From: a virus
DNA length: 35,229 bases
IMG/VR virus record: IMGVR_UViG_3300032105_000056
Location: 1-35,229 of that record
Strand: one strand, 5' to 3'
In this document: piece by piece, positions 1 through 35,229 of the stretch
How positions within the stretch are numbered: the first letter of the stretch is position 1
How the letters are laid out: each line of letters starts with the position of its first letter
The notes under the pieces: generated by a model
Seen by the model: the letters and a program-made list of their open reading frames with translations, nothing else
Databases searched by the model: none
What the model was told of the DNA's origin: nothing
Position numbers and translations under genes: made by a program

Positions 1-257
1 TTCGGCCCTTTCCCATGACGGATAAGGAATAGAGTCCATCCATGGGAGCAAGTGACGGCAATGAGCCCTTTCACTCCCCCGAGGTCTGCGCCCCCGAGGT
101 CTGCGCCCCCGAGGTTTGCGCTCCAGAGGTTTGCGCTCCAGAGGTTTGCGCCCCCGAGGTCTGCGCTCCTGAGGTCTGCGCTCCTGAGGTCTGCGCCCTG
201 CGCGACTACCCGGGTTCCGTCAGCAATCGCTTTTCTGATTTTTTGCAGATCAGTCAT
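1..257 (-). CDS. Pentapeptide-repeat protein, 3' end off the left edge
   Basis: Read on the minus strand, this frame gives a short N-terminus ([14 protein letters not shown]...) followed by about eight consecutive A(D/N)LXX repeats ([15 protein letters not shown]), the signature of the pentapeptide-repeat beta-helix fold. A non-repeat tail ([22 protein letters not shown]) then runs off the window, so the protein is incomplete. The chosen ATG has a GAAGGG ribosome site six bases upstream; an in-frame ATG at 272 behind AAGGA would add five residues. It is the first gene of a leftward transcript whose promoter lies at 312-341. Some pentapeptide proteins mimic DNA and bind gyrase, but nothing here shows that role. 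Substitutions among the repeats fall at the variable X and D/N positions, as expected for the family, which supports this strand over the opposite-strand frames. Confidence 0.8.
76..195. repeat. Eight tandem 15-bp repeats
   Basis: Eight head-to-tail copies of a 15-bp unit (plus-strand form CCCCCGAGGTCTGCG, with variants at three positions) fill this segment exactly. They are explained as the DNA encoding of the A(D/N)LXX repeats on the minus strand, so they need not be iterons or regulatory sites. Confidence 0.9.
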
Positions 258-281
258 TATCTGCCCTTCCATTTTTTCCTT

Positions 282-307
282 GCATTTATGCCTGCGGGCA
301 TTTATGC
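282..307. promoter_or_regulatory. Two operator-like palindromes (GCATTTATGC)
   Basis: GCATTTATGC occurs at 282-291 and again at 298-307, 16 bp apart. Each is a 4-bp inverted repeat (GCAT/ATGC) around a 2-bp centre. The pair overlaps the predicted start and leader of the leftward promoter at 312-341. A weak rightward promoter (TTGCAT at 280, TATGCA at 303, 17-bp spacer) would be covered as well. Repressor binding is inferred from repetition and position. Confidence 0.6.
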
Positions 308-311
308 ATAG

Positions 312-341
312 ACCATACAAGGGCGCCGGAACCAATGTCAA
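312..341 (-). promoter_or_regulatory. Leftward early promoter
   Basis: On the minus strand a perfect -35 TTGACA (plus 336-341) is followed after 18 bp by a -10-like TATGGT (plus 312-317). Transcription would start near 305 and lead into the pentapeptide gene after a short leader. The 20 bp at 335-354, covering the -35 and its upstream palindrome, are identical to 16324-16343 at the second leftward promoter. Confidence 0.6.
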
Positions 342-351
342 GCATAAATGC
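342..351. promoter_or_regulatory. Third operator-like palindrome (GCATAAATGC)
   Basis: GCATAAATGC abuts the upstream side of the leftward -35 and lies just before, or over, the start of the HTH gene. It is the reverse complement of the copies at 282 and 298, and the identical site sits in the same position relative to the -35 at 16331-16340. Confidence 0.6.
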
Positions 352-362
352 GCGAGCGCCAA

Positions 363-569
363 ATGACGGATTATTTGGAACAGGTGAGACGGCACGCGGG
401 GAGCCTGGGCATGACGCCCTTGGAGCTGGTGCGCGCCGCGGGCGTAAACGAAAGCACCTGGCGCCGCTGGCGGGCGGGCACATTTGCCCCACAAACCCGG
501 ACGCTGGATCGGCTGCTTTCCTACCAACCAAAAAAGGCCGCTTCTGTCTTTCGCCGGGGGATCGCATGA
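363..569 (+). CDS. Small HTH DNA-binding protein
   Basis: A 68-residue protein whose segment GMTPLELVRAAGVNESTWRRW looks like a Cro/XRE-type helix-turn-helix, with the second helix (NESTWRRWRAG) as the likely recognition helix. It sits immediately right of three operator-like palindromes and divergent to the leftward promoter, where a phage would place a Cro- or repressor-like regulator. An in-frame ATG at 348 would add five residues but lies inside the palindrome. Both starts have weak ribosome sites. The target site is inferred from position only. Confidence 0.65.
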   Translation: MTDYLEQVRRHAGSLGMTPLELVRAAGVNESTWRRWRAGTFAPQTRTLDRLLSYQPKKAASVFRRGIA

Positions 570-9476: not shown

Positions 9477-9682
9477 GAATCCCAACCCTTGCAGACGGCG
9501 ACAATTGGATTCGCGTTGACGATAAGGCTGCTTTGGCAGGGCTGCTTCTTTCCGAAAAGCGCGTTGAGGTTTACGACCCGCCGAATAACCAAATACGGAA
9601 TATCCCGGCCGTTTGCCTGAGGCGCCATCCCTTCGCGTTCAGCCTTGCAAGGAAGGTTCCGCCCACCTCGCCGAAGGAATGA
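9473..9682 (+). CDS. Hypothetical 69-residue protein between terminase genes
   Basis: It starts in an ATGA overlap with the small terminase gene, and its TGA overlaps the large terminase start. The sequence MRIPTLADGDNWIRVDDKAALAGLLLSEKRVEVY is probably beta-rich. No family is recognised; coupling on both sides supports it. Confidence 0.55.
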   Translation: MRIPTLADGDNWIRVDDKAALAGLLLSEKRVEVYDPPNNQIRNIPAVCLRRHPFAFSLARKVPPTSPKE

Positions 9683-10878
9683 TGCAACCCTCCGCAGTTA
9701 TCGAACTCCCCGCCTACGCCCAGCCGTTTTGGCGACCCCATCGCTACAAGGTGCTTTACGGCGGCCGTGGCGGGGCCCGCTCCTGGACGTTCGCCCGGAT
9801 GGCCCTGCTTACCGCGGCCGAACGGACGGTGCGGATTCTATGCGCACGCGAAATCCAGAATTCGATTCGGGACAGCGTGCACCGGTTGCTGGGAGACCAG
9901 ATCGAATTGATGGGCCTGCCCGGCTTCAAGGTTTACGAGCAGGAAATCCGGCACGTCGGGACCGGAAGCCTGCTCGTTTTCGAGGGCCTTCGCCACAACA
10001 TCAACCGGATCAAATCCTACGAGGGTGTTGATATCGCATGGATCGAGGAAGCCGAAAAGGTAAGTGCCCGCTCCTGGGAAACTCTGATTCCTACGATCCG
10101 CAAGGCGGGGTCGGAGCTTTGGATTTGCTTCAATCCGGATCAGGACGATGATCCAACCTTCAAGCGATTTGTCGCCGACCCGCCGCCCGGGGCGCTTGTC
10201 CGGAAAGTAGGATGGCGGGACAATCCCTGGTTTCCCGTCGAATTGGAAAAGGAAAAGGATTATCTTTTCCGCGTTGACCCCGACGCCGCGGCGCATGTCT
10301 GGGAGGGCGAGACCCGGGCCAATACAGAAGCCCAAGTCATGCACGGGAAATGGCGGGTAGAGGCGTTCGAGCCGCAGGAGCATTGGAACGGCCCGTACCA
10401 GGGGGCGGATTGGGGCTTTTCAGTGAACCCTACGACCTTGGTGCGTTGCTGGATTGCCGACAATCGGCTTTGGGTCGAACACGAGGCCTACGGCGTAGGC
10501 GTGGATATCGGCGCCGCGACTTCCCGGCTGTTCAAACGGATACCCTTCGCCGAGCAATACGTTATCCGCGCCGATTCGGCCCGGCCTGAAACGATTAGCC
10601 TGATGAAACAAGAGCCGGAAGCATGGCGCATTGGCGCCGCGATGAAATGGCCTGGGTCGGTAGAAGACGGCATTTCCTTCCTCCGGCGATTTGAGGAAAT
10701 CATTATCCATCCCCGCTGCCTCCATGCCATCGAGGAGGCCCGGCTTTACAGCTATCGGGCGGATAAATTGACGGGCGACGTGCTACCGGACATAGTGAAA
10801 AAGCACGATCACATTTGGGATGCTATCCGTTACGCGCTTGCCCCGGTAATCCGAAAGCGCACTTGGGGGCCTATTTAA
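9679..10878 (+). CDS. terL: Terminase large subunit (PBSX/Terminase_3 type)
   Basis: A 399-residue packaging ATPase-nuclease. The ATPase half has GGRGGARSW at 28-36 (Walker A with Arg in place of the usual Lys), DIAWIEEAEKVS (Walker B, E123/E124) and WICFNPD (coupling motif). The nuclease half has GADWGF, RADSARPE and DHIWDAIRYAL, which supply the RNase H-fold acidic residues. The ATG at 9679 overlaps the previous stop and is followed by a second ATG. A longer frame from 9613 is unlikely because it lies inside the previous gene. It drives DNA into the procapsid through the portal encoded nearby. Confidence 0.92.
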   Translation: MMQPSAVIELPAYAQPFWRPHRYKVLYGGRGGARSWTFARMALLTAAERTVRILCAREIQNSIRDSVHRLLGDQIELMGLPGFKVYEQEIRHVGTGSLLVFEGLRHNINRIKSYEGVDIAWIEEAEKVSARSWETLIPTIRKAGSELWICFNPDQDDDPTFKRFVADPPPGALVRKVGWRDNPWFPVELEKEKDYLFRVDPDAAAHVWEGETRANTEAQVMHGKWRVEAFEPQEHWNGPYQGADWGFSVNPTTLVRCWIADNRLWVEHEAYGVGVDIGAATSRLFKRIPFAEQYVIRADSARPETISLMKQEPEAWRIGAAMKWPGSVEDGISFLRRFEEIIIHPRCLHAIEEARLYSYRADKLTGDVLPDIVKKHDHIWDAIRYALAPVIRKRTWGPI

Positions 10879-11162
10879 TGCCGAATGGAAATGGCGCCGA
10901 TCGAATACGCACTTTTCGGTTGAAGCGCCTAATCGGTCAGGAATTAACCATCGGTGGTGCGGCCGTGCGGATCATCGGGACAAACGGCCCCCGCGTCGAA
11001 TTGGAATTTCTTTTACCGCCGGGCGTGATGGTAGAGGCAGATAGGGACGCGGCGGCAATCAACCGGGTATTTTTCTTCGCACGCGATCTTGACCATTGGC
11101 TTAGGGCATTCCGCAGAAAGGATGCCCCTCCCAAGGAAGCCCCTCGCCAGGCCGAGCGATGA
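10878..11162 (+). CDS. CsrA-like small protein
   Basis: A 94-residue protein starting in a TAATG overlap with terL, with GGGGG upstream. Residues about 10-60 (FRLKRLIGQELTIGG...VRIIGTNGPRVELEF..PPGVMV) follow the CsrA/RsmA pattern: L-x-R-x-x-G, then IG, then hhGxxGxxVxL, then PxxVxV. The conserved Leu4 position is kept, but the RNA-contacting Arg44 position is not clearly aligned and one residue is missing between the first two strands. A polar C-terminal tail follows. It may bind phage or host mRNA, or use the fold for another purpose. The assignment rests on pattern only. Confidence 0.5.
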   Translation: MPNGNGADRIRTFRLKRLIGQELTIGGAAVRIIGTNGPRVELEFLLPPGVMVEADRDAAAINRVFFFARDLDHWLRAFRRKDAPPKEAPRQAER

Positions 11163-13288
11163 ACCTTTGGCCCTTCCGCCGTAATCGTAAAGCAGCCCCG
11201 GCCTCCCCCGTTATCCATTCAGGCGGCGGCACTCAATTCTCGTTCCTCCGCAATCTGGATATCAACACCGGCGAAGGCGGCTATGATTACCGTCGACGCG
11301 TAGGAACCGGCACCGGGGCCTCTGTCGTGATGGCGCCGGTCCAATGGGTGCAACGATCTCTTCCAGAAGCCCCCTTGATCGTCGAGCGCGAGGTAGCCCC
11401 TGGCGAATGGGAACCGGACGAGGCACATCCCCTCCAAGCCTTGCTCGAACAGCCGAACCCTTTTTACACGGGCCTGCATTTATGGCAGGCGACGATTTTC
11501 AGCTACCTTACCGACGGAAATTCCTACTGGATTATCGTCCGGAATGGCATGGGCCGCCCGATGGCCCTTTGGTACGTTCCCCATTGGCTGATTCGCCCAA
11601 TGGCCCCAGATGATGGAAGCGAATTCCTGACGGGATACGAGTACCGGGTGCGTGGGCGCCAGATCGAATTGCGGGCAGATCAGATCGTGCATTTCCGCCA
11701 CGGGATAGACCCCGAAAATCCGAGGCTGGGAATTTCCCCCATTGACTCGGCGATTCGGGAAATCTGGGCGGACATGGAGGCCTCCGAATTCATTGCTTCC
11801 CTACTCCGAAACAGCGGCATCCCTGGCCTTGTGATTTCGCCCGACGATGACGGGGGCACGATCAGCCCTGTTGATCCAGAGGAAATCAAACGTTACGTCA
11901 TGGAGCGCACTACCGGGAGTCGCCGCGGCGAGCCGGTAGTGATGAGTGGAAAAACAAAAATCGAGCGCCTCGCGTGGTCGCCCCGCGAAATGGATTTGTC
12001 CCCCGCGTCTGACAGATCGGAGGAAAGGCTTTGCGCGCTGCTGGGAATTCCTGCGGCAGTGGTCGGTTTTTCGGCCGGCCTGGAACAGACCAAGGTTGGC
12101 GCTACCATGAGCGAGCTACGCAAACTCGCATGGATGAACGGGATCATTCCCTTGCAGCGCAATTTTGCCGGGGAGGTTGATCGCGCATTGATCCCCGCGT
12201 TTGGCGATACCGGGAGGCGACGTACGCGATTCGATACAGCGCGAGTCACGGCATTGCAGGAGGACCGGAACAAATTGTTTCAAAGGATCGACCGTGGAAT
12301 TCAAGGGGGATGGATATCCATTGCCGATGGAAAGCGGGAAGTCGGAATGGAGCCGGAGCCGGGCGATGAGGTATATCTGCGGCGGACCGCCGTGCTGGCT
12401 GTCCCTGTTGATGCCCCGCTTGTGCCAGCCCACGAGCCCGAGGTGGACGACGAGGCAACCCCTAGGCTTCCCCCGGCCAAAATCAAACAGGATGAGCCCA
12501 CAGGGCTTGAACGGCGGCTATTGGAGCATCCCACGCGAGCGCGCGCGACGGAGGCCCAGCTTCGCTATATGGAAATCCAGGAGGCCGCCCTTCCAGGCTT
12601 GATCGCTGCGATGGAAGACGAGCTGTTGGAATTTTTCGGCGACTTGGCGGATCGCGCTCTTGCGGCGGCGGAGCCGATCTTGGAGGATATGTTCAAGGCT
12701 GCGGGCCCCGAGGTATCAATCGCAACCGACCGAATTTTGGAAGCGATGGCGATGCCGGGCATTATTTCGATTTTCAAGGAAGTCCACGAGCGTCAATATC
12801 TGCGCGTGGCCGAAGGCTCTACCGCCGAAGCGATGGGAGCAATCGGCCTTCAGACAAACATTCCCGATCCCGTAGCACGGGCGATCCAGGCCACCGGCGG
12901 GACGCGCGCGGGGCTGGTGGACCTGAAAGTGCAGACGCGGAAGGCCCTTTTCCGCGCAATCGAGGAAGGCCGCGCGCTGGGGGAGGGAGGGCAAGCCCTG
13001 GCTCGCCGTATCGAAGGGTTGGTCAAGGCAGGGCCTTGGTCTTCTGCCGAGGTTCGCGCCACCATGATCGCCAGAACCGAAACAAAGCACGCCCAGCGCA
13101 TGAGCGCGCTGGTGATGGGCCGCGGGCAGGGAGTTGAACAATTCCGGGTATTCGACGCCCGCCTGGGGCTTACCGATGCGACGTGCGAAAGCCTGGACGG
13201 GATCATTGTTTCCGCGGCCGACGCCGAGCACCTTGCCGGCGATGAGCACCCTTTGGGGACGCGCGATTTTGTCCCGCATTTTGGGTAA
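11159..13288 (+). CDS. HK97-type portal fused to a MuF-like minor head domain
   Basis: A 709-residue protein starting in an ATGA overlap. Residues 1 to about 420 are an HK97-family portal (MAPVQWVQRS, NPFYTGLHLWQA, DGNSYWIIVR, IDPENPRLGISPID, LGIPAAVVGFSAGLEQTKVG). A proline-rich linker follows. The C-terminal third has the Mu gpF/SPP1 gp7 pattern (ARTETKHAQRMSAL ... RVFDARLGLTDATCESLDG). Most phages encode these as separate genes, so this is a fusion. The portal ring is the DNA channel; the MuF part is usually a minor head protein that is ejected or stabilises the head. No separate minor head gene follows. Confidence 0.85.
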   Translation: MNLWPFRRNRKAAPASPVIHSGGGTQFSFLRNLDINTGEGGYDYRRRVGTGTGASVVMAPVQWVQRSLPEAPLIVEREVAPGEWEPDEAHPLQALLEQPNPFYTGLHLWQATIFSYLTDGNSYWIIVRNGMGRPMALWYVPHWLIRPMAPDDGSEFLTGYEYRVRGRQIELRADQIVHFRHGIDPENPRLGISPIDSAIREIWADMEASEFIASLLRNSGIPGLVISPDDDGGTISPVDPEEIKRYVMERTTGSRRGEPVVMSGKTKIERLAWSPREMDLSPASDRSEERLCALLGIPAAVVGFSAGLEQTKVGATMSELRKLAWMNGIIPLQRNFAGEVDRALIPAFGDTGRRRTRFDTARVTALQEDRNKLFQRIDRGIQGGWISIADGKREVGMEPEPGDEVYLRRTAVLAVPVDAPLVPAHEPEVDDEATPRLPPAKIKQDEPTGLERRLLEHPTRARATEAQLRYMEIQEAALPGLIAAMEDELLEFFGDLADRALAAAEPILEDMFKAAGPEVSIATDRILEAMAMPGIISIFKEVHERQYLRVAEGSTAEAMGAIGLQTNIPDPVARAIQATGGTRAGLVDLKVQTRKALFRAIEEGRALGEGGQALARRIEGLVKAGPWSSAEVRATMIARTETKHAQRMSALVMGRGQGVEQFRVFDARLGLTDATCESLDGIIVSAADAEHLAGDEHPLGTRDFVPHFG

Positions 13289-13449
13289 GCGCGGAGCGGC
13301 CATGGGAACGGGCTAGAAGCCCTTTCGCATGATTGGCTAATCATATATTTGCAAATCAATTTCCGGAATTTCCTATGAGACCTCCTCTCCGGCTACAAAA
13401 CGCATTTTACGACTACCCAAAAAAGGATGTCCCACCGGAGCAAAATCCA

Positions 13450-13701
13450 ATGACTGAAAGAGAAAATTTCAGTAGCAATCCTGTCGCGGAGGCCATCAAA
13501 GCTGCCTCTGCGCTGGTAAAGCACGCCCCACCCCCCGAAGACGTGATGGGGCAACGGGACGCTCTCCTGACGGCAGGCCGGGCGGTTCTGCAAGCCTATT
13601 TGAATTTTGGCGGGGACTACAAGGAAGTGGGTGAAAGGGCGCATGGCAGGGCAATGGCCGCGCTGCGGGATGCGATTTTGAAGACGGAGAAAAATGGATA
13701 A
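13450..13701 (+). CDS. Hypothetical 83-residue protein
   Basis: The ATG at 13450 has GGAG at 13437-13440 upstream; a frame open from a TTG at 13333 is less likely. The product is helical (PVAEAIKAASALVKH ... DALLTAGRAVLQAYLNF). It lies in the head module between portal and protease. No family is recognised. Confidence 0.5.
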   Translation: MTERENFSSNPVAEAIKAASALVKHAPPPEDVMGQRDALLTAGRAVLQAYLNFGGDYKEVGERAHGRAMAALRDAILKTEKNG

Positions 13702-13963
13702 ACGAGATTCCGGCACAACGCGCTTTTTGACGGCGAGCATGGCGGACTTTTTCAAATCCGGATCGCCCGCGCTCACCGAAGAGGCCCGCCGCGTCCGTCG
13801 GCAAATTCAGAAATTGGAAGCCAACCGCGGAAAGACGAGCAAAAACATCAACCGCAGCATTCGCGGAAAAAACCGCAGCCCGTGTCTGTTCCGGGTGTTT
13901 TTCTTTCCACCGCTGCGAACTGATTTTGTGAAGGCCCCGCGCATGAGCTTTTTGGCAATTTAA
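13694..13963 (+). CDS. Hypothetical basic protein
   Basis: An 89-residue protein starting eight bases before the end of the previous gene, with GGAG upstream. It has a helical middle (TEEARRVRRQIQKLEANRGKT) and a Lys/Arg-rich stretch, then a hydrophobic C-terminus that may be spurious. No family is recognised. Confidence 0.4.
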   Translation: MDKRDSGTTRFLTASMADFFKSGSPALTEEARRVRRQIQKLEANRGKTSKNINRSIRGKNRSPCLFRVFFFPPLRTDFVKAPRMSFLAI

Positions 13964-14059
13964 GCAGCGAATACAATTTGGATTCCTGGGTATCGGCAAC
14001 GCTCCGGCGCATTCAATACAGCGCCCGATTTTAAAAATCATTCCGCGCATGAGGTTCTC

Positions 14060-14806
14060 ATGGAAATAAAAACAAACATTGGCGCCCGCGTAAAACAACT
14101 CGATGAGGCTGGGAGTGGCATCGCCATTATAGCAACTTTGGGGGTCATTGACAGCGACGGCGACGTTACACTGCCCGGGGCCTTCGGGGCGCAGGCTGCG
14201 AAAATGGTGCCCGCCCACGATTGGCAGCACGTCCCGCTGGGGAAGGCCGATATCCGCGAGGAGGGAAACGAAGTGCTTGCCGCATTTCGGTTGAACCTTG
14301 AAATCGAATCGGCCCGCGATTGGCATTCGGCTTTGAAAAACGATCTGGCCAACGGCCCTCCTTTGCAGGAATGGAGCTACGGGTTCAGCATCGTGGATGC
14401 CTCCTTCGGGGAGCATGAGGGACAGGAGGTCAGGTTTCTAAAAAAGGTGGACGTACATGAAATCAGCCCGGTCATGCTCGGGGCCGGGGTGGGCACGCGC
14501 ACCGTCGCCGTCAAAGAGAATATCGGGGCCAGGCTCGTGGATCAGCTTGCCGCCGCCCTGCGGGAGGCAAAAGCCGTGATCGAACGATGCGGCGAAATCA
14601 GGGAATTACGGAAAGGGGAGGGGCGCGATCTTTCGCCCGAGCGATTGGCCGATCTGGAATCATTGCAGGAAGCCTTTAAGGAATTGGCCGCTGCGAAAGA
14701 AGCCTTGGACGGGGTGCTCACCCGCGGCGGCGAGGCCGTGCAGGCCGAGGAATTATTGGCCGAATTCTCTTGGGTCTCGCACGTCGTTGGCGCCCGCTTG
14801 CGCTAA
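14060..14806 (+). CDS. HK97-family prohead protease
   Basis: A 248-residue protein of the S78/U35 prohead protease type: DSDGDVTLPGAFG near 31-43, AHDW with candidate catalytic His53, EWSYGFSI with candidate Ser106, and VHEISPVMLGAG. GAGG lies upstream of the ATG. The C-terminal 80 residues are helical and charged and could act as a scaffold-like extension. It would cleave the N-terminal delta domain of the capsid protein during maturation. Its last 54 bases overlap the leftward HTH gene. Confidence 0.88.
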   Translation: MEIKTNIGARVKQLDEAGSGIAIIATLGVIDSDGDVTLPGAFGAQAAKMVPAHDWQHVPLGKADIREEGNEVLAAFRLNLEIESARDWHSALKNDLANGPPLQEWSYGFSIVDASFGEHEGQEVRFLKKVDVHEISPVMLGAGVGTRTVAVKENIGARLVDQLAAALREAKAVIERCGEIRELRKGEGRDLSPERLADLESLQEAFKELAAAKEALDGVLTRGGEAVQAEELLAEFSWVSHVVGARLR

Positions 14807-14974
14807 ATCGGCGAGCATCAAGCGAACGGCTACGGCCACCGGGCCGGGGACGGGGTGCTCCCCCGCCTCCCAGCGCCGGATAGTTCGCCCGTCGGATACT
14901 TGAAGGGCCAGGGCGAGGCCCCGCGCGGAAAGCCCGAGGTCGCGCCGGGCTGCTTTCAATTCAACGGCAGTCAT
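14753..14974 (-). CDS. XRE-type HTH regulator, leftward, inside the head module
   Basis: A 73-residue protein MTAVELKAARRDLGLSARGLALALQVSDGRTIRRWEAG..., a typical XRE helix-turn-helix with recognition helix GRTIRRWEAG. It is the last gene of the leftward cassette and overlaps the 3' end of the protease gene tail to tail. It could be a regulator of the GCATAAATGC or CCTGTTagAACAGG sites near 16331-16375; that is inferred from context. Confidence 0.72.
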   Translation of the reverse strand: MTAVELKAARRDLGLSARGLALALQVSDGRTIRRWEAGEHPVPGPVAVAVRLMLADLAQAGANDVRDPREFGQ

Positions 14975-15079
14975 TCTGATACCCTTTTAGCGCGCGGCGC
15001 GTTCGGCGAGGTCGCGGATGGCAGCAGATTCTGTTTCCCAATAATGCCCCGTGAAACAAATACCATCCGGGGCAACTTC

Positions 15080-15277
15080 TCATGTAGCAAAAGGCGTAAG
15101 AGCGTTGCCCGAAATTTGTGCCTTGCCCCAATCGTGCCTCCGAGTCGCGTCAACTATTTCCTGCGAACCGCATGGGGAAACAGCACCGCAGAATTGGCCA
15201 ATCTTCTCACACAGGCACCTTATGAAATCACGTGTGGGTTTGTGTTCGATTGCAGATAATGATTCTTCATAAGTCAT
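15080..15277 (-). CDS. Hypothetical Cys-containing protein, possible in-frame stop
   Basis: A 65-residue frame (MTYEESLSAIEHKPTRDFIRC...) containing four Cys (C..C, later C and C) and ending at a TGA at 15080. The same frame then continues for 30 sense codons to 14987 (..PDGICFTGHYWETESAAIRD...), which looks protein-like. The gene may be interrupted, or the TGA may be an error. The start is uncertain; a TTG at 15319 would extend it by 14 residues. No good ribosome site is seen. Confidence 0.4.
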   Translation of the reverse strand: MTYEESLSAIEHKPTRDFIRCLCEKIGQFCGAVSPCGSQEIVDATRRHDWGKAQISGNALTPFAT

Positions 15278-15357
15278 AATACAACTCAGTTTGAAATTAA
15301 CCACGTTTCCCAAAGGCAAATTCCCATGGGGTACTATACATCTTTGTGATTACAGAA

Positions 15358-15450
15358 TTACAAAAGTGCGGACAACATAAAAGCAACAACTGCTACGAGT
15401 GCCGTTATTGCAAGGGCAATTGCAGCTTTCCATTGATTATTCAATTTCAT
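15358..15450 (-). CDS. 30-residue single-membrane-span peptide
   Basis: The ATG overlaps the stop of the upstream cassette gene (ATGA on the minus strand). The product MKLNNQWKAAIALAITALVA... is almost entirely one transmembrane helix. Such tiny membrane peptides occur among phage morons and toxin-like genes. The only support is coupling and hydrophobic composition. Confidence 0.4.
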   Translation of the reverse strand: MKLNNQWKAAIALAITALVAVVAFMLSALL

Positions 15451-15626
15451 TTTATTTTCTCAGGCTGTTGGTTGGCCGCCATCATCGCGGCTACGATGTC
15501 TTTGAAAGGCCCCGCAATGTCCGTTTTAGGCCACCGCTTATGCGGGTTGCCGGCGTAACGGAAGGCAATAAAATGCGCGCCGTTGCGACAAATGTAAAGT
15601 TTCTGTTTCCGTGACTTGCTCTTCAT
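15447..15626 (-). CDS. Hypothetical 59-residue basic protein
   Basis: On the minus strand an AGGAG lies six bases before the ATG, an ideal ribosome site. The product is MKSKSRKQKLYICRNGAHFI..., with a basic N-terminus and a pattern (YICRNGAHFIAFRYAGNPHK) that looks like a small beta-sheet fold, then a helix. No family is recognised. It is coupled to the 30-residue membrane peptide. Confidence 0.6.
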   Translation of the reverse strand: MKSKSRKQKLYICRNGAHFIAFRYAGNPHKRWPKTDIAGPFKDIVAAMMAANQQPEKIK

Positions 15627-15712
15627 CTTCCACTCCTAGTGAGTCGTGCTCCCGATTCCGCCGGCGCGAGATCAAAAATTCTTTTTCCGTTCGGGTTTCC
15701 GGTTCCGCCGAG

Positions 15713-15979
15713 TTAGCTATTTAACGGAGAGTGGTTCATCGGCCATTCTGCCACTCGCGCAATCCCGCAAATTTCCGCACAAACGGAAATGGGTTCGCCG
15801 TCTCCAATCCCGCCGGCGGCCCTCTTGTTCAAATCCGTCAATTCAACCGCTCGTTTCCTGGCAGCCCGCAACCGTTCTACTAGGTCGGGATGGGCGATGC
15901 GAAAAAGCTTCTGAGAAATTAGCCCCTTGCTTCCGGCAAGGCGACTCCGCAGCATCGTTGTGATTTGTCTTCGATTCAT
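15713..15979 (-). CDS. Hypothetical 88-residue basic protein
   Basis: The ATG is preceded on the minus strand by AAGGGAG. The product starts MNRRQITTMLRSRLAGSKGLISQK and has a basic helical middle (HPDLVERLRAARKRAVEL), possibly nucleic-acid binding. It is the second gene of the leftward cassette. No family is recognised. Confidence 0.55.
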   Translation of the reverse strand: MNRRQITTMLRSRLAGSKGLISQKLFRIAHPDLVERLRAARKRAVELTDLNKRAAGGIGDGEPISVCAEICGIARVAEWPMNHSPLNS

Positions 15980-16005
15980 TTTTCTCCCTTCAGGGTTTGA
16001 CTGAA

Positions 16006-16266
16006 CTAGGCAACCATCGTCCGTGAATCGTCGGCCAAACAGATCGTCAATCTGATTCCTTTATCGCGGGCCTTGGCGGCCCAGAGCCACACCGGCGCGG
16101 TTAGCGTCGTGCCGTCCATTTCGATTTGCGATTTCGGGAACCACAGTTGCGCCGGGCGGCGGTTGGAATCGTATTCAACGGAAACGAGAATTGCTTTTTC
16201 GGTTTCGCGGATCATCGTCACATCCTGGGTTCCGTTTTCTTTGGGGGAGATTTTCGCGTTCATCAT
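16006..16266 (-). CDS. Small phage protein with WFPKSQIE motif
   Basis: An 86-residue protein, first gene of the leftward cassette. Two adjacent ATGs (16266 and 16263) follow AAGGA; the second has the better spacing. The segment KAILVSVEYD...QLWFPKSQIEMDG followed by WLWAAKARDKG matches a widespread phage protein type (WIPKSQ ... WLAxK) of unknown function. The promoter at 16302-16330 lies about 30 bases before it. Confidence 0.68.
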   Translation of the reverse strand: MMNAKISPKENGTQDVTMIRETEKAILVSVEYDSNRRPAQLWFPKSQIEMDGTTLTAPVWLWAAKARDKGIRLTICLADDSRTMVA

Positions 16267-16301
16267 TTTCCTTTCGGAGGGGTTCTTGATTTCTTGATTC
16301 C

Positions 16302-16330
16302 ATCATAGGACGGCCTGCCCTATATGTCAA
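16302..16330 (-). promoter_or_regulatory. Leftward sigma70 promoter of the cassette
   Basis: The minus strand reads TTGACA (plus 16325-16330), a 17-bp spacer, then TATGAT (plus 16302-16307): a perfect -35, optimal spacing and a five-of-six -10. Transcription would begin near 16295 and reach the first cassette gene after about 30 bases. It is the best promoter match noticed in the window. Confidence 0.82.
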
Positions 16331-16340
16331 GCATAAATGC
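16331..16340. promoter_or_regulatory. Fourth operator-like palindrome (GCATAAATGC)
   Basis: Identical to 342-351 and placed the same way, directly upstream of the leftward -35. It also occupies the -35 region of a rightward TATAAT at 16355-16360, so one bound regulator could affect both directions. Confidence 0.62.
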
Positions 16341-16354
16341 GCGGGATAGGAAAA

Positions 16355-16375
16355 TATAATACCTGTTAGAACAGG
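16355..16375 (+). promoter_or_regulatory. Rightward -10 with adjacent CCTGTTagAACAGG palindrome
   Basis: A perfect TATAAT (16355-16360) faces the capsid gene but lacks a recognisable -35; GCATAAATGC lies there instead. A perfect 6-bp inverted repeat with a 2-base spacer (16362-16375) covers the expected start point. This suggests a regulated, perhaps activator-dependent, capsid promoter, with a leader of about 175 bases (16376-16544) in which no gene is seen. Confidence 0.4.
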
Positions 16376-16544
16376 GGGTTAGGAATTATTTTCATCCTGC
16401 CTCTTGCCTTTCCAAAAAACCACGTTCATATTTTTCCCAAGATCGGGCGCAGGCGCCTGGTCGAGTACCCGCCACAAGGCGCTGCGTCCGGAAGGCGGAT
16501 AGGGATTTCTCGAAATGAAAACCCGGTCCCCGGAGGTACGCGCC

Positions 16545-17825
16545 ATGCCCGATCCCATCAAAAATCAGCAGCTTATCGAGCTGGAGGCAAAGCTCAAAGT
16601 CGTCCAGGACCGCGCGGCGCGGGCTTTCGAGGAAGCCAAGATCGAACGCGACGGCCAGGCCGTGCATGATTTCACCCGCGTCAAAGTTTACGGGGAGGGT
16701 CTTTCGACCGTTGCCGTCGCCGAAAAGGTTCGGGAGGACAACGCCGAAATGGACGAGCTTTCAAAGCAAATGGAAACCCTGCGCGCCGCGCAATATGCAT
16801 TCAAACGCCTGAGCGCGCCGGCCGATGAAATTGTCCACCCCCCCAACGGTCCGGGCAAAAGTTATCGCGAACCGGCCGAGCGCAAAACCCTTGGGCAGCG
16901 GATCGTCGCCACCGAACAATTCAAGGCCTGGGGCGCTCAAAAAGGACAGAAGACCGGCGAGATTTTCATCCCCGACTACGGCCTGGCCGAATTGAAAACG
17001 CTTTTCGAGACGACCGCCGGCTGGTCTCCCGAGAGTGTTCGCAGCGGACGCCTCGTGGAGGCGGTCACTCGCCCGGCTCAAATCCTGGATATCATCCCTC
17101 CGGGGACGGTCAGTCAAGCGGCCTACGTTTACATGGAGGAAACGACCCGAACCCAGGCGGCCGCGGAAAAGGCCGAAGGGGCGACCTACGCGGAATCCGC
17201 GTTTGTCTTGACCGAGCGTTCCGAGACGGTGCGCAAGATCACCGATTCGGTTCCCGTGACGGATGAGCAGTTGGAAGATGTTTCGGCCGCGCAGTCGTAT
17301 CTCGACATGAGAATCCGTTTCGGGCTTCGTCAGCGCCTGGACAATCAGATTATCCAAGGAGATGGCATCGCTCCGAATCTGACCGGGATTTTGAACAAGT
17401 CCGGCATTCAAACCCAGGCCAAAGGCGCTGATCCCGTGCCTGACGCCTTTTTCAAAGCCATGACGCTGGTTCGAGTCACCGGGCGCGCCATCCCCACCGC
17501 GGTGTTGATCCATCCGAACGATTGGCAGGGTATCCGGCTTCTCCGCACGGCCGATGGAATCTATATCTGGGGAAATCCCAGCGAGGCCGGCCCTGAGCGC
17601 CTTTGGGGACTTCCGGTTGTCGTGTCCGATGTGCTGACGGAAAACACCGGGCTCGTCGGGGGCTTCGCCGACTGGTGCCAACTGCTCGAAAGGCGCGGCA
17701 TCCTGGTCGAGGTCGGATTCACCGGCACGCAATTTGTGGAAGGCAAGCAAACGATACGGGCTTCCTTGCGCGTCGCGTTTGCGATCTACCGCGCTGCGGC
17801 GTTCTGTACGGTTACGGGGATTTGA
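16545..17825 (+). CDS. HK97-type major capsid protein
   Basis: A 426-residue protein. The start at 16545 has GGAGGT seven bases upstream; the ATG at 16515 is less likely. The first 100 or so residues are helical and charged (delta/scaffold-like domain, cut by the protease). The core carries HK97-fold features: GWSPESVRSGRLVEAVTRP, RKITDSVPVTDEQLEDV, GDGIAPNLTGILN, LIHPNDWQGIRLLRT, LWGLPVVVSDVL, and the C-terminal RVAFAIYRAAAFCTVTG. It forms the icosahedral shell. Confidence 0.92.
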   Translation: MPDPIKNQQLIELEAKLKVVQDRAARAFEEAKIERDGQAVHDFTRVKVYGEGLSTVAVAEKVREDNAEMDELSKQMETLRAAQYAFKRLSAPADEIVHPPNGPGKSYREPAERKTLGQRIVATEQFKAWGAQKGQKTGEIFIPDYGLAELKTLFETTAGWSPESVRSGRLVEAVTRPAQILDIIPPGTVSQAAYVYMEETTRTQAAAEKAEGATYAESAFVLTERSETVRKITDSVPVTDEQLEDVSAAQSYLDMRIRFGLRQRLDNQIIQGDGIAPNLTGILNKSGIQTQAKGADPVPDAFFKAMTLVRVTGRAIPTAVLIHPNDWQGIRLLRTADGIYIWGNPSEAGPERLWGLPVVVSDVLTENTGLVGGFADWCQLLERRGILVEVGFTGTQFVEGKQTIRASLRVAFAIYRAAAFCTVTGI

Positions 17826-32061: not shown

Positions 32062-32288
32062 TGGAGATTATTTTTTTGGTATGGCTTTCTTTTGCGACTC
32101 CGAACATCGTTGTACGGGTGGAGGAATTCAAGGCAGCATGTATGCATCGCGGTGGGTTGGTTGGGGCTTATCCCGGACCCCTCCGTCAGATAATTCTCCC
32201 GTCCAATGGAAGCCTTGCTAAATTTCAGCTTGCCGGATTAGAAATAATTTGCACGGTGCAAAAAACGTCCGTGCGGGATAAAAAATAG
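32061..32288 (+). CDS. Small exported or membrane protein of the lysis region
   Basis: A 75-residue protein starting one base inside the lysozyme stop (TGATG). The N-terminus MEIIFLVWLSFATPNIVV is hydrophobic, like a signal peptide or anchor; one Cys lies at about 27 and another near 64. It could be a spanin-like or accessory lysis protein, but no family is recognised. Confidence 0.45.
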   Translation: MEIIFLVWLSFATPNIVVRVEEFKAACMHRGGLVGAYPGPLRQIILPSNGSLAKFQLAGLEIICTVQKTSVRDKK

Positions 32289-32367: not shown

Positions 32368-32580
32368 TCACTCGTGCGCTTCCCGTATATTACTAGAGCC
32401 TGTCAACTGCTTTTGCAAAACATTCATAAAGGTACACCCGATATCCTTTTCGCCCCCGGCGAAAGCCTCTGTTCCCAAGCCCGCGTGAACGATTTTCAGC
32501 AGGGCCTCGGCTTCATGCCGCACCAGGCCGATGGTGTAAGTGACGTGGCTTTCCTTGGTAACCGAAAATTTAATCATCAT
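32368..32580 (-). CDS. Hypothetical 70-residue protein downstream of the ATPase
   Basis: The ATG overlaps the ATPase stop (ATGATG on the minus strand) and follows GGAGGAAGG. The product MIKFSVTKESHVTYTIGLVRHEAEALLKIVHAGLG... has a strand-helix look. No family is recognised. It ends the leftward operon. Confidence 0.55.
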   Translation of the reverse strand: MMIKFSVTKESHVTYTIGLVRHEAEALLKIVHAGLGTEAFAGGEKDIGCTFMNVLQKQLTGSSNIREAHE

Positions 32581-34235
32581 CCTTCCTCCGTCCGAGAATT
32601 TTGAATCCAGTAGGAATGCCCTATCGCGTTGCCCCGGAGGTCGGGCATATCCTCCGGGTTTGTGATCGTCATGCAAACCAGCGAAGGCCGACCGGCCGCC
32701 AGGAGTAGCCGCATCAATCCGTTTCGCCCCTGCTTATCCAGAATATCGGCTCCGTCGATCACCACGGCATCGCTGAAATCCAGATCGGCTAAGGCTATTT
32801 GGATCATCACCCGGGATCGGAATTTTCCAGATTCGGAACAAAGCGACCATGCGGTTCCCCGATACAGAACAGTCAGCCCGTTCGTGATTTCGACCGCAGG
32901 CCACCCCGCCACCTCCGCCAAGGCTTCCAGATTGCGATTGAATTCCTGGATAGCATCCTTCAATTTTGCAGCGCGCAGGCCATCAGCGGCGAGAATCGCC
33001 ACCAGGGCTTGATTCAGGAGGATGCTCGCGTGAAGCCGGTCCGCTCGGGTTTTCGCCCTCCATGCGCGAATTCGATTTTCTGCAAGCTGCAAATCGCGGC
33101 GGGCTCTTTCCAGGGCGGCCTCGTCGTTTCCCTGTCCGCCCGGCTCGGCTTCGGTAGCTTTCAGCGTACCCGCGCTCGCCATAGCCTCGCCAAGTAAGGC
33201 CTGCTGCTCGTGGAGTCTCCGGGTTGCGCTTTGGAGGGCTTCGGAGGCCATTAGCTGCCCCTGGACGGCTTTCTCGCGTGCCGCCCTACGACTTGCATTT
33301 TCTTCCGAGGCGAGGGCTATCGGAGGTTTTATCAGCTTCCCCGTCAGGATGCAGCATGGCTCCCCGCAATGGGGGCACGAAACGGTTACTTGATCGTCCT
33401 CGGGCGACGGAAGGATTTTTAGAAGCCCCGCACTTTCTCGCACTTTGTCGCCGGCCGCTTCCGCGGCCTCGCTCCATTTTTTTACCTCGTCCGTGTGTTC
33501 CTGAATTTTCCCCGCCTTTTCCCGGAGCTGGGCGATCCGATCCTCGGAAACGGCGGTATGGGCGATTGAGGCGTCCCGGATTTCCTCTTGCTGGACAACC
33601 TGGGCCGAAAGGCTTTCCTCACTGGCCCCGTCAAGATCGGATTCCCATTCGGCCGGCATCCACGTTTCGGCCTTGGACGATCCGTAATTTTCTCCCGTGA
33701 CTTCACGCCAGGCCCCCTTCATTTCGATCCCTTTGTCCTTGGCGTGAAGGTGGGCGGCATCCCATCCCCGGCCCTCAATGCTGGCCCATAGCTTTTCCAT
33801 GCCGCCGGCATCAAGCAAATCGCCAGTCGCCTTTTCAAAATCGGTGCGGGTTGGCGTAGCTTTGAGATACTCAATCAACGCAGACGCAAATTCCTTTCGC
33901 TCGAGATCGAGAAGCGATGCCATCCCTACCGCGAAGGCGGAAGCCGATGGGGGCTCCCCCTCGGTTTCCTTTTTCGCCCGCGGGTATTCGATCCGTGCGC
34001 TTCCTTTTTCGGTTTCAAGTGATATCGCCCCGTTGCCGGTCCCGGAGTGGATCAGCATCGCGGCGTCTTGCTTTCGCAAATCCTTGACCGGGACGGTTTC
34101 TCCCGTAAGGAGGGCTTGGAGGGCTTGCGCGATGCTTGTCTTTCCGGCCTCGTTAGGGCCCGCGACGAGGGCAATTTTTGCGAGTGCGATATCCGCCTTG
34201 GCGATCCCCCTGAAATTCCGAATGGAAAGTTTCAT
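32577..34235 (-). CDS. Rad50/SbcC-like AAA ATPase with zinc-hook motif
   Basis: A 552-residue protein. It starts KLSIRNFRGIAKADI, the usual RecF/SMC N-terminus, with Walker A AGPNEAGKTS at 25-34. A coiled-coil-rich middle carries CPHC at 287-290 (plus C294, C295), a Rad50-type zinc hook. A second coiled coil and a C-terminal Walker B-like AVVIDGADILD near 490-500 follow; the residue after the Asp is Gly, not the usual Glu. At 552 residues the arms are short. No Mre11/SbcD partner is seen in the window. Likely role: DNA-end or recombination processing together with the gp3-like protein it is coupled to (TAATG). Confidence 0.8.
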   Translation of the reverse strand: MKLSIRNFRGIAKADIALAKIALVAGPNEAGKTSIAQALQALLTGETVPVKDLRKQDAAMLIHSGTGNGAISLETEKGSARIEYPRAKKETEGEPPSASAFAVGMASLLDLERKEFASALIEYLKATPTRTDFEKATGDLLDAGGMEKLWASIEGRGWDAAHLHAKDKGIEMKGAWREVTGENYGSSKAETWMPAEWESDLDGASEESLSAQVVQQEEIRDASIAHTAVSEDRIAQLREKAGKIQEHTDEVKKWSEAAEAAGDKVRESAGLLKILPSPEDDQVTVSCPHCGEPCCILTGKLIKPPIALASEENASRRAAREKAVQGQLMASEALQSATRRLHEQQALLGEAMASAGTLKATEAEPGGQGNDEAALERARRDLQLAENRIRAWRAKTRADRLHASILLNQALVAILAADGLRAAKLKDAIQEFNRNLEALAEVAGWPAVEITNGLTVLYRGTAWSLCSESGKFRSRVMIQIALADLDFSDAVVIDGADILDKQGRNGLMRLLLAAGRPSLVCMTITNPEDMPDLRGNAIGHSYWIQNSRTEEG

Positions 34236-35229
34236 TAGAACAGGTCTCCCGCTATCGTGGGTTTTTTGGGAGAGGCCGCCGGCGGTGCGTCCTTGTCTGG
34301 GGCAGCGGGCTTGGGGCGCTGGGGGACTCCCCCCGGGGCTTTGATGGAGGGCGGCGGCGATTCTGCCGGGGCTTCCGCGTCCGCCGGGGGGTCTTGATCC
34401 CGGTCGGTTTCTTCCTCCGATGTTTCCCGTGAAACATCAGCCAGTTTTTTCCTCCCACGCTTTTTCTTCGGTTCTTTTGCTGCGGGGTCGGCAATCGGCG
34501 GGGCTTCGCCCTGTTCCGACTCCGGGTAAAATTCCGCGACAATATCGTCGCCGTCCTCGTCGGGGAAAACCGCATCCGGTTCCGCCCCTTCAAATAGCCG
34601 GCGGGCTTCCGTTTCGATATGCTCAATTCGGAGATTCGCTTGCTGACTCGCCACGGCGATCCGGAATCCTTCCTCCCGAAGAGCGTCAACCGACCCGGTA
34701 AAATCCAGGCCGACGACGTAGATCGTTTGCTGCTTTCCATCCGGCAATCTGGCGGGCTTGGGATTTACAACCAGGTCAAGGGGAATATTCGCAAGCTGCC
34801 CGCCGGTAATGCCGGCCATGAAAAGAAGCGATCCCATGAGCCCGTCAACCGAATTGAACGACGTGGTCCTGAACTTCCAAACCCCCCCGACCCCGCCGGC
34901 TCCGTCAATCAAAACGGAAAGCACCCCGTTGATTTTGCAGGCGGGCGCGGGGCCGGCATACCCTTGTTCAATCCGTTCGCAAGGGCAATCGATCCGGTCG
35001 TATTCCCCGTTTTTTTGCAGCCGCTTGGCCTCGCCCCCATCGCCGGAGCAAAAAAGCGTTCGCCCGCTATACGCCGCGTAGCGCGTGGCAAAATTCAGAT
35101 CGGGATCGTTGTAAAGTAGCCGGATCGGAATCCTCCTCAGCTTCGCGGGGTCTTGCCTGGTGGCCTTACCGATAGCTTCCATGAGCGGAAAGTCAGGGAC
35201 GTAATTGTCGCCGGCGTCCCGCACCATGG
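34235..35229 (-). CDS. phiC31 gp3-like (RDF-like) protein, may be cut by the right edge
   Basis: The core YNDPDLNFATRYAAYSGRTLFCSGDGGEAKR ... CKINGVLSVLIDGAGGVGGVWKFRTTSFNSVDGLMGSL ... GITGGQLANIPLDLVVNPK matches the Gp3-like family, often labelled hydrolase or metal-binding protein. phiC31 gp3, the recombination directionality factor of a serine integrase, belongs to it. Cys60, Cys81, Cys83 and Cys97, counted from the ATG at 35227, probably bind zinc. The last 110 residues are acidic, Pro/Lys-rich and disordered, ending GDLF. The ATG may not be the true start, as the family N-terminus usually extends further. Most relatives occur without a known integrase, so the RDF role is uncertain. Confidence 0.75.
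   Translation of the reverse strand, partial: MVRDAGDNYVPDFPLMEAIGKATRQDPAKLRRIPIRLLYNDPDLNFATRYAAYSGRTLFCSGDGGEAKRLQKNGEYDRIDCPCERIEQGYAGPAPACKINGVLSVLIDGAGGVGGVWKFRTTSFNSVDGLMGSLLFMAGITGGQLANIPLDLVVNPKPARLPDGKQQTIYVVGLDFTGSVDALREEGFRIAVASQQANLRIEHIETEARRLFEGAEPDAVFPDEDGDDIVAEFYPESEQGEAPPIADPAAKEPKKKRGRKKLADVSRETSEEETDRDQDPPADAEAPAESPPPSIKAPGGVPQRPKPAAPDKDAPPAASPKKPTIAGDLF

Follow-up and report, generated by a model that had tools for sequence, protein, structure and literature searches.

Several described systems come close to the locus analysed here. Aca proteins (Aca1-Aca10) autorepress their acr-aca operons (PMC9410906, PMC9410881). The R-M controller C.Esp1396I is a small HTH dimer that acts at several promoters through short dyads (C-boxes, GACT) lying by the -35 (PMC3758141). 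Mycobacteriophage stoperators, the sites of a multi-site phage repressor, are numerous and asymmetric and stop elongation (PMC9283540). In archaeal viruses, putative anti-defence genes can be recognised by a regulatory motif that they have in common with early genes (PMC11065993). Multi-site phage regulators, Cro-like switches, Aca autorepression and the shared early motifs of archaeal viruses are already known singly (PMC9283540, PMC9410906, PMC11065993).

In the window (the whole 35,229-base stretch of viral DNA that was analysed), an early switch and a cassette of small genes 16 kb away seem to be run from one regulator, and a small virus-encoded protein probably binds the palindrome, GCATWWATGC, found at both. 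A fuller reading, to which we give a little less than an even chance, is that this shared operator ties an accessory anti-defence cassette to the early lytic switch of the phage, with Aca-like autorepression through a second operator in addition.

The motif and its copies

The original prediction placed four copies of GCATAAATGC or its complement at 282-291, 298-307, 342-351 and 16331-16340; all four are there, and the window has no fifth. A looser pattern, GCATNNATGC, adds a single match (GCATGTATGC at 32136, inside a coding frame), giving five observed against 0.74 expected, a number reached in none of 100 shuffles. Markov simulations of the window (400 of order 2 and 400 of order 3) yielded a mean of 0.05-0.06 exact copies per simulated genome, with a maximum of two, and not one pair within 70 bp; set against the roughly 0.05 expected from them, the four copies found put the motif above chance. 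Other viral loci, amounting to 1.12 Mb, held four exact copies in total.

The copies at 342 and 16331 had also been said to share a 20-bp identity containing TTGACA and to abut a leftward -35. The identity is exact (335-354 = 16324-16343), and each copy directly touches the upstream edge of its TTGACA, with the centres of the two sites ~40-42 bp upstream of the expected start. An UP element was rejected by inspection as the identity of the motif, which is GC-capped and palindromic; a methylation site and a LexA box were likewise rejected by inspection.

The early locus

Three of the copies lie at a divergent early region, whose features are as follows.

282-291: predicted operator copy 1, GCATTTATGC, overlapping the inferred rightward -35
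298-307: predicted operator copy 2, GCATTTATGC, on the expected leftward start site and the inferred rightward -10
342-351: predicted operator copy 3, GCATAAATGC, adjoining the leftward -35
312-341, minus strand: leftward early promoter, TTGACA (341-336), 18 bp, TATGGT (317-312), 10 of 12 consensus positions
280-308, plus strand: inferred weak rightward early promoter before HTH1, TTGCAT (280-285), 17 bp, TATGCA (303-308)
363-569, plus strand: HTH1, a 68-aa Cro/C-protein-like regulator, with an alternative start possible at 348
1-275, minus strand: first leftward early gene, a pentapeptide-repeat protein (Pfam E 5.6e-11), cut by the window edge
32577-34235, reverse strand: SbcC-like gene, at the right end of the record
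34235-35227, reverse strand: Gp3-like gene, at the right end of the record

The leftward promoter is the only good consensus match at this locus; the rightward one was read by eye and was missed by the consensus scan. The layout is of the Cro type, with a small HTH gene at the divergent region and repeated operators over its promoter. Tandem repeats of ~15 bases at 75-200 are the coding repeats of the leftward pentapeptide-repeat protein. Downstream of HTH1, 883-1506 encodes a PHROG 9210 protein with a weak C-terminal DnaJ-like match.

HTH1 has no PHROG match and reaches Pfam HTH families only below cut-off, and neither collection gave a sequence match to known Cro/CI families. The best structural match of its model (mean pLDDT 79) is 434 Cro, and C.Esp1396I came up repeatedly, all with weak E-values. 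By inspection of the ORFs, no R-M pair was recognised beside HTH1; a methyltransferase-like gene lies 8 kb away.

The early locus in related viruses

Two related viruses carry an HTH1 homologue. In G001 (IMGVR_UViG_3300005253_000539; 26.4 kb), HTH1 is 63% identical to that of the window, and the sole exact copy of the motif (5313) and the sole one-mismatch copy (5341, GCAATTATGC) both lie between divergent operons, the exact copy adjoining a -35-like hexamer (TTGCTT-17-TATGCT). In G002 (IMGVR_UViG_3300009537_003043) the arrangement is the same; its HTH1 is 39% identical and has a recognition helix, QASTRWR, that differs from those of the window (ESTWRRWR) and G001 (DSTWHRWR). The 51.9 kb of G002 hold no GCATWWATGC, and a different dyad, GGTGT-N7-ACACC, stands between the divergent genes. 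Operator site and HTH1 recognition helix vary together in this one comparison. Where the early genes of G002 diverge, a single 17-bp dyad, GGTGTCACATCAACACC (L010, 6004-6020), is a candidate for the operator used by its diverged HTH1. Pentapeptide-repeat sequence is present in G002 too.

A search for HTH1 in a phage collection and 398 genomes gave nothing; the single genome-scan match, in a Pseudomonas locus, has no operator, apparently lies within another gene and was set aside as chance. Scanning IMG/VR with TerL and with c1 yielded no relatives, and none of the 80 loci from a primase scan had HTH1; one of these (L029) has several genes in common with the window.

The 35,229-base record looks like a fragment. 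Its Gp3-like gene has ~45 N-terminal residues fewer than that of G001, and the left end of the window is not a continuation of it; the record is therefore not a simple circle, and a stretch is missing. Because G001 has the Gp3-like and SbcC-like genes leftward of the same divergent region, in the window they probably share the leftward early operon with the pentapeptide-repeat gene. No PF00589 or PF00239 match, as an integrase or recombinase would give, was found in the window or G001, both fragments. The capsid (region 9613-17825) is ~50% identical to those of the Mu-like Sinorhizobium phages StopSmel and Aussie, and the early region of the window is not Mu-like; the isolates nearest by capsid (StopSmel, Aussie and Mwe-Yong1, all Mu-like) have different early regions.

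The cassette locus

The fourth copy lies at an acr-aca-like cassette inserted among head genes, flanked by a rightward protease gene (14060-14806) and the gene for the capsid (16515-17825). The original prediction had not recognised it as such.

16331-16340: predicted operator copy 4, GCATAAATGC, adjoining the cassette -35
16302-16330, minus strand: cassette promoter, TTGACA (16330-16325), 17 bp, TATGAT (16307-16302), 11 of 12 consensus positions
16307-16321, minus strand: second dyad, AGGGCAGGCCGTCCT, between -35 and -10, the probable operator of HTH2
16006-16266, minus strand: cassette gene c1, 86 aa
15713-15979, minus strand: cassette gene c2, 88 aa
15447-15626, minus strand: cassette gene c3, 59 aa
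15080-15277, minus strand: possible cassette gene c4, 65 aa, uncertain for want of a clear ribosome-binding site
14753-14974, minus strand: HTH2, a 73-aa Aca2-like regulator, the last cassette gene

Sequences resembling ribosome-binding sites precede c1, c2 and c3. The cassette genes have no informative family match and include no known acr gene.

A collection scan for the 16-mer GCATTTATGCTTGACA found 23 loci, one of which, L095 (IMGVR_UViG_3300005253_001654; 4.8 kb), encodes a portal, protease and capsid 56-62% identical to those of the window (capsid 62%). The other 22 lack close relatives of the query proteins (one has a distant terminase) and were dismissed as chance or unrelated. In the protease-capsid gap of L095, in the same place and orientation, GCATTTATGC abuts TTGACA-17-TAAGAT ahead of a leftward cassette. 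The cargo is two small genes with no detected resemblance to the window cassette genes, and the last gene is an HTH2 homologue (52% over 42 aa). Between the two viruses, the operator, the promoter and the last gene are conserved and the cargo is variable. In both, small variable genes are followed by a small HTH gene (c1-c4 and HTH2 in the window), which is the layout of acr-aca operons. The cargo is presumably anti-defence, on the grounds of this layout, its variability and the Aca-like last gene rather than of homology to a known inhibitor.

L095 and G001 are different viruses, the capsid stretch that they have in common being 82.7% identical in nucleotides. A motif search in related viruses, proposed with the original prediction, thus gave GCATWWATGC at the early locus of G001 and at the cassette locus of L095, and this conservation supports the proposed two-locus regulon; only three relatives are informative and the contig of none spans both loci, which occur together in the window alone.

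HTH2 and the AGGGC-N5-GYCCT dyad

In the -35/-10 spacer the window has the dyad AGGGCAGGCCGTCCT and L095 has AGGGCCTATGGCCCT; 9 of the 10 arm positions agree and none of the 5 central ones. There is one AGGGC-N5-GYCCT in the window (16307-16321), one in L095 and none in G001, and neither the window nor G001 has it in the early region. Both cassettes thus have the core-promoter inverted repeat of acr-aca operons. Bradyrhizobium phage ppBeUSDA76-2 (L115) was picked up solely for its HTH2 homologue (47% identity); upstream of that gene is AGGGCCACTTGCCCT, ending on a -10-like hexamer, TATAGG. The top-scoring genomic HTH2 homologue (L121) has AGGGCCTTTTGCCCT 239 bp upstream, ending on a -10-like TATATT. 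No GCATWWATGC was found around either of these genes, one GCATCCATGC lying elsewhere in the Bradyrhizobium phage. All four dyad-associated HTH2 proteins have the recognition-helix residues RTxRRW in common. HTH2-like genes in L129, L157 and L158 showed no AGGGC dyad in the stretches examined, that of L159 has just 255 bp of upstream DNA to inspect, and a second survey for HTH2-type genes found no AGGGC dyads besides those of L121/L156. At L121, positions 1262-1692 form a two-gene operon of a small protein (66-aa frame) and the HTH2 homologue, with an AGGGC-N5-GCCCT dyad; the far end of the locus has an integrase-like frame, and this is probably a mobile element carried by a bacterial genome.

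By sequence, HTH2 falls just below the cut-off of Pfam Aca2_YdiL (21.2 bits against 23.8). The best structural match of its model (pLDDT 88) is Aca2 (E 9.7e-4, 31% identity), although at 73 aa it is without the C-terminal part of Aca2. It is probable that HTH2 autorepresses through AGGGC-N5-GYCCT as its own predicted operator.

A model for the two loci and its alternatives

The original prediction had named two possible binders of GCATWWATGC, the HTH proteins at 363-569 and at 14753-14974. The former, HTH1, is favoured; the latter, HTH2, seems to have a different operator. Since HTH2 most likely uses the separate AGGGC-N5-GYCCT dyad, HTH1 is the best candidate. The motif, the promoters, the conservation at two loci, the variable cargo and the second dyad are observed features, and from them we infer a binding protein, repression, early timing and an anti-defence function. 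In the resulting model, which we judge fairly probable, HTH1 represses the early and cassette promoters through GCATWWATGC, HTH2 adds autorepression of the cassette, and the cassette is expressed early and serves anti-defence. Being near consensus, both leftward promoters would be expected to fire at once after entry. HTH1 would then be made from the rightward operon and accumulate, its dimers occupying the site at 16331, against the cassette -35, and those at 282, 298 and 342, which between them span both early promoters. This occupancy would lower transcription, shutting down its own divergent promoters and the cassette, while HTH2 would independently lower the cassette through the dyad between -35 and -10. 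With HTH1 shutting the leftward promoters off, the cassette would be an early, transient and presumably anti-defence operon within late head genes. It counts against this model that the half-sites of the GCAT-NN-ATGC core are closer than in most XRE-type operators, that HTH1 matches no family above cut-off, that the stretches examined around the HTH2-like genes of L129, L157 and L158 have no AGGGC dyad, and that the two loci occur together in the window alone.

The position of the sites also suits activation. A dimer centred ~41 bp upstream of the start and touching the -35 would contact sigma, and class II-like activation of this kind is known for R-M controller proteins and for lambda CI at PRM. 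HTH1 might in this way activate the leftward promoters, with the sites at 282 and 298 giving later repression. The site stands exactly at the upstream edge of the -35 at two promoters in the window, in L095 and in G001, and C.Esp1396I, which is among the structural matches of that protein's model, controls several operators. It is mainly the weak leftward promoter of G001 (TTGCTT-17-TATGCT), as an activated promoter would be, that keeps this alternative in play; the promoters of the window and L095, however, are near consensus and should need no activator, and copy 2 sits on the leftward start site. We regard activation as unlikely.

Both remaining alternatives give GCATWWATGC to another protein. 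HTH2 might bind it in place of HTH1, or the two might share it, just as lambda CI and Cro have operators in common, so that an Aca-like protein would control the early switch too. HTH2 is encoded within the operon governed by the 16331 site, was kept together with that site in L095, and has the T-x-R-R-W recognition helix found in both HTH proteins of the window. Yet it has a candidate dyad of its own, which also lies upstream of two homologues that lack GCATWWATGC and is missing from the early regions; G001, moreover, has GCAT sites and no HTH2, although that fragment ends before the cassette position. On balance this is improbable. Less probable still would be a host regulator, a phage replication initiator acting on iterons or another phage protein as the binder. 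Three direct or inverted copies within 70 bp do look iteron-like; but the fourth copy is 16 kb off against a promoter, in a placement conserved in L095, the motif is rare in other viral loci (four copies in 1.12 Mb), and the site changes along with the recognition helix of HTH1. Repression by HTH1 remains the preferred reading.

Comparison with described systems

Like acr-aca operons, the cassette has a strong promoter, small variable genes, a small HTH gene in last place and an inverted repeat in the core promoter. Unlike them, it has an added second operator, common to the phage early switch, and no known acr gene. HTH2 resembles Aca2 in that Aca2 is the best structural match of its model, and differs in its position below the Pfam cut-off and in having no counterpart to the Aca2 C-terminal part. 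The early locus is like those of the Cro-type regulators of lambda and 434, with a small HTH gene heading the rightward operon and repeated operators between divergent promoters, and 434 Cro is the top, albeit weak, structural match of HTH1. In contrast to lambda and 434 Cro, the core here is a 10-bp GCATWWATGC, one operator lies 16 kb away in the late region, and no CI-like partner or integrase was found in the window. With C.Esp1396I the locus shares short dyads next to the -35 at several promoters, as well as the structural similarity of the HTH1 model, but no R-M genes stand beside HTH1 and activation is here hypothetical. As with stoperators, one phage regulator would act at distant genome sites, although here there are two loci, both at promoters. 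As in the archaeal viruses, an early regulatory sequence is shared with putative anti-defence genes; this, however, is a phage of bacteria, its promoters are of the sigma70 type and a candidate regulator has been identified.

A non-exhaustive literature search turned up no account of a phage early regulator having its operator at an aca-type cassette as well. If true, the model would explain early, brief expression of an operon sited within late head genes, and new anti-defence genes in this phage group would come to light by scanning for the early operator that a phage itself uses. GCATWWATGC and AGGGC-N5-GYCCT can serve as queries for further cassettes of this kind, and the small genes carried there are candidates for encoding new anti-defence proteins. 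Beyond the known control of Aca proteins over their own operons, a cassette of Aca layout here also seems to answer to the phage early regulator, through an operator shared with the early switch.
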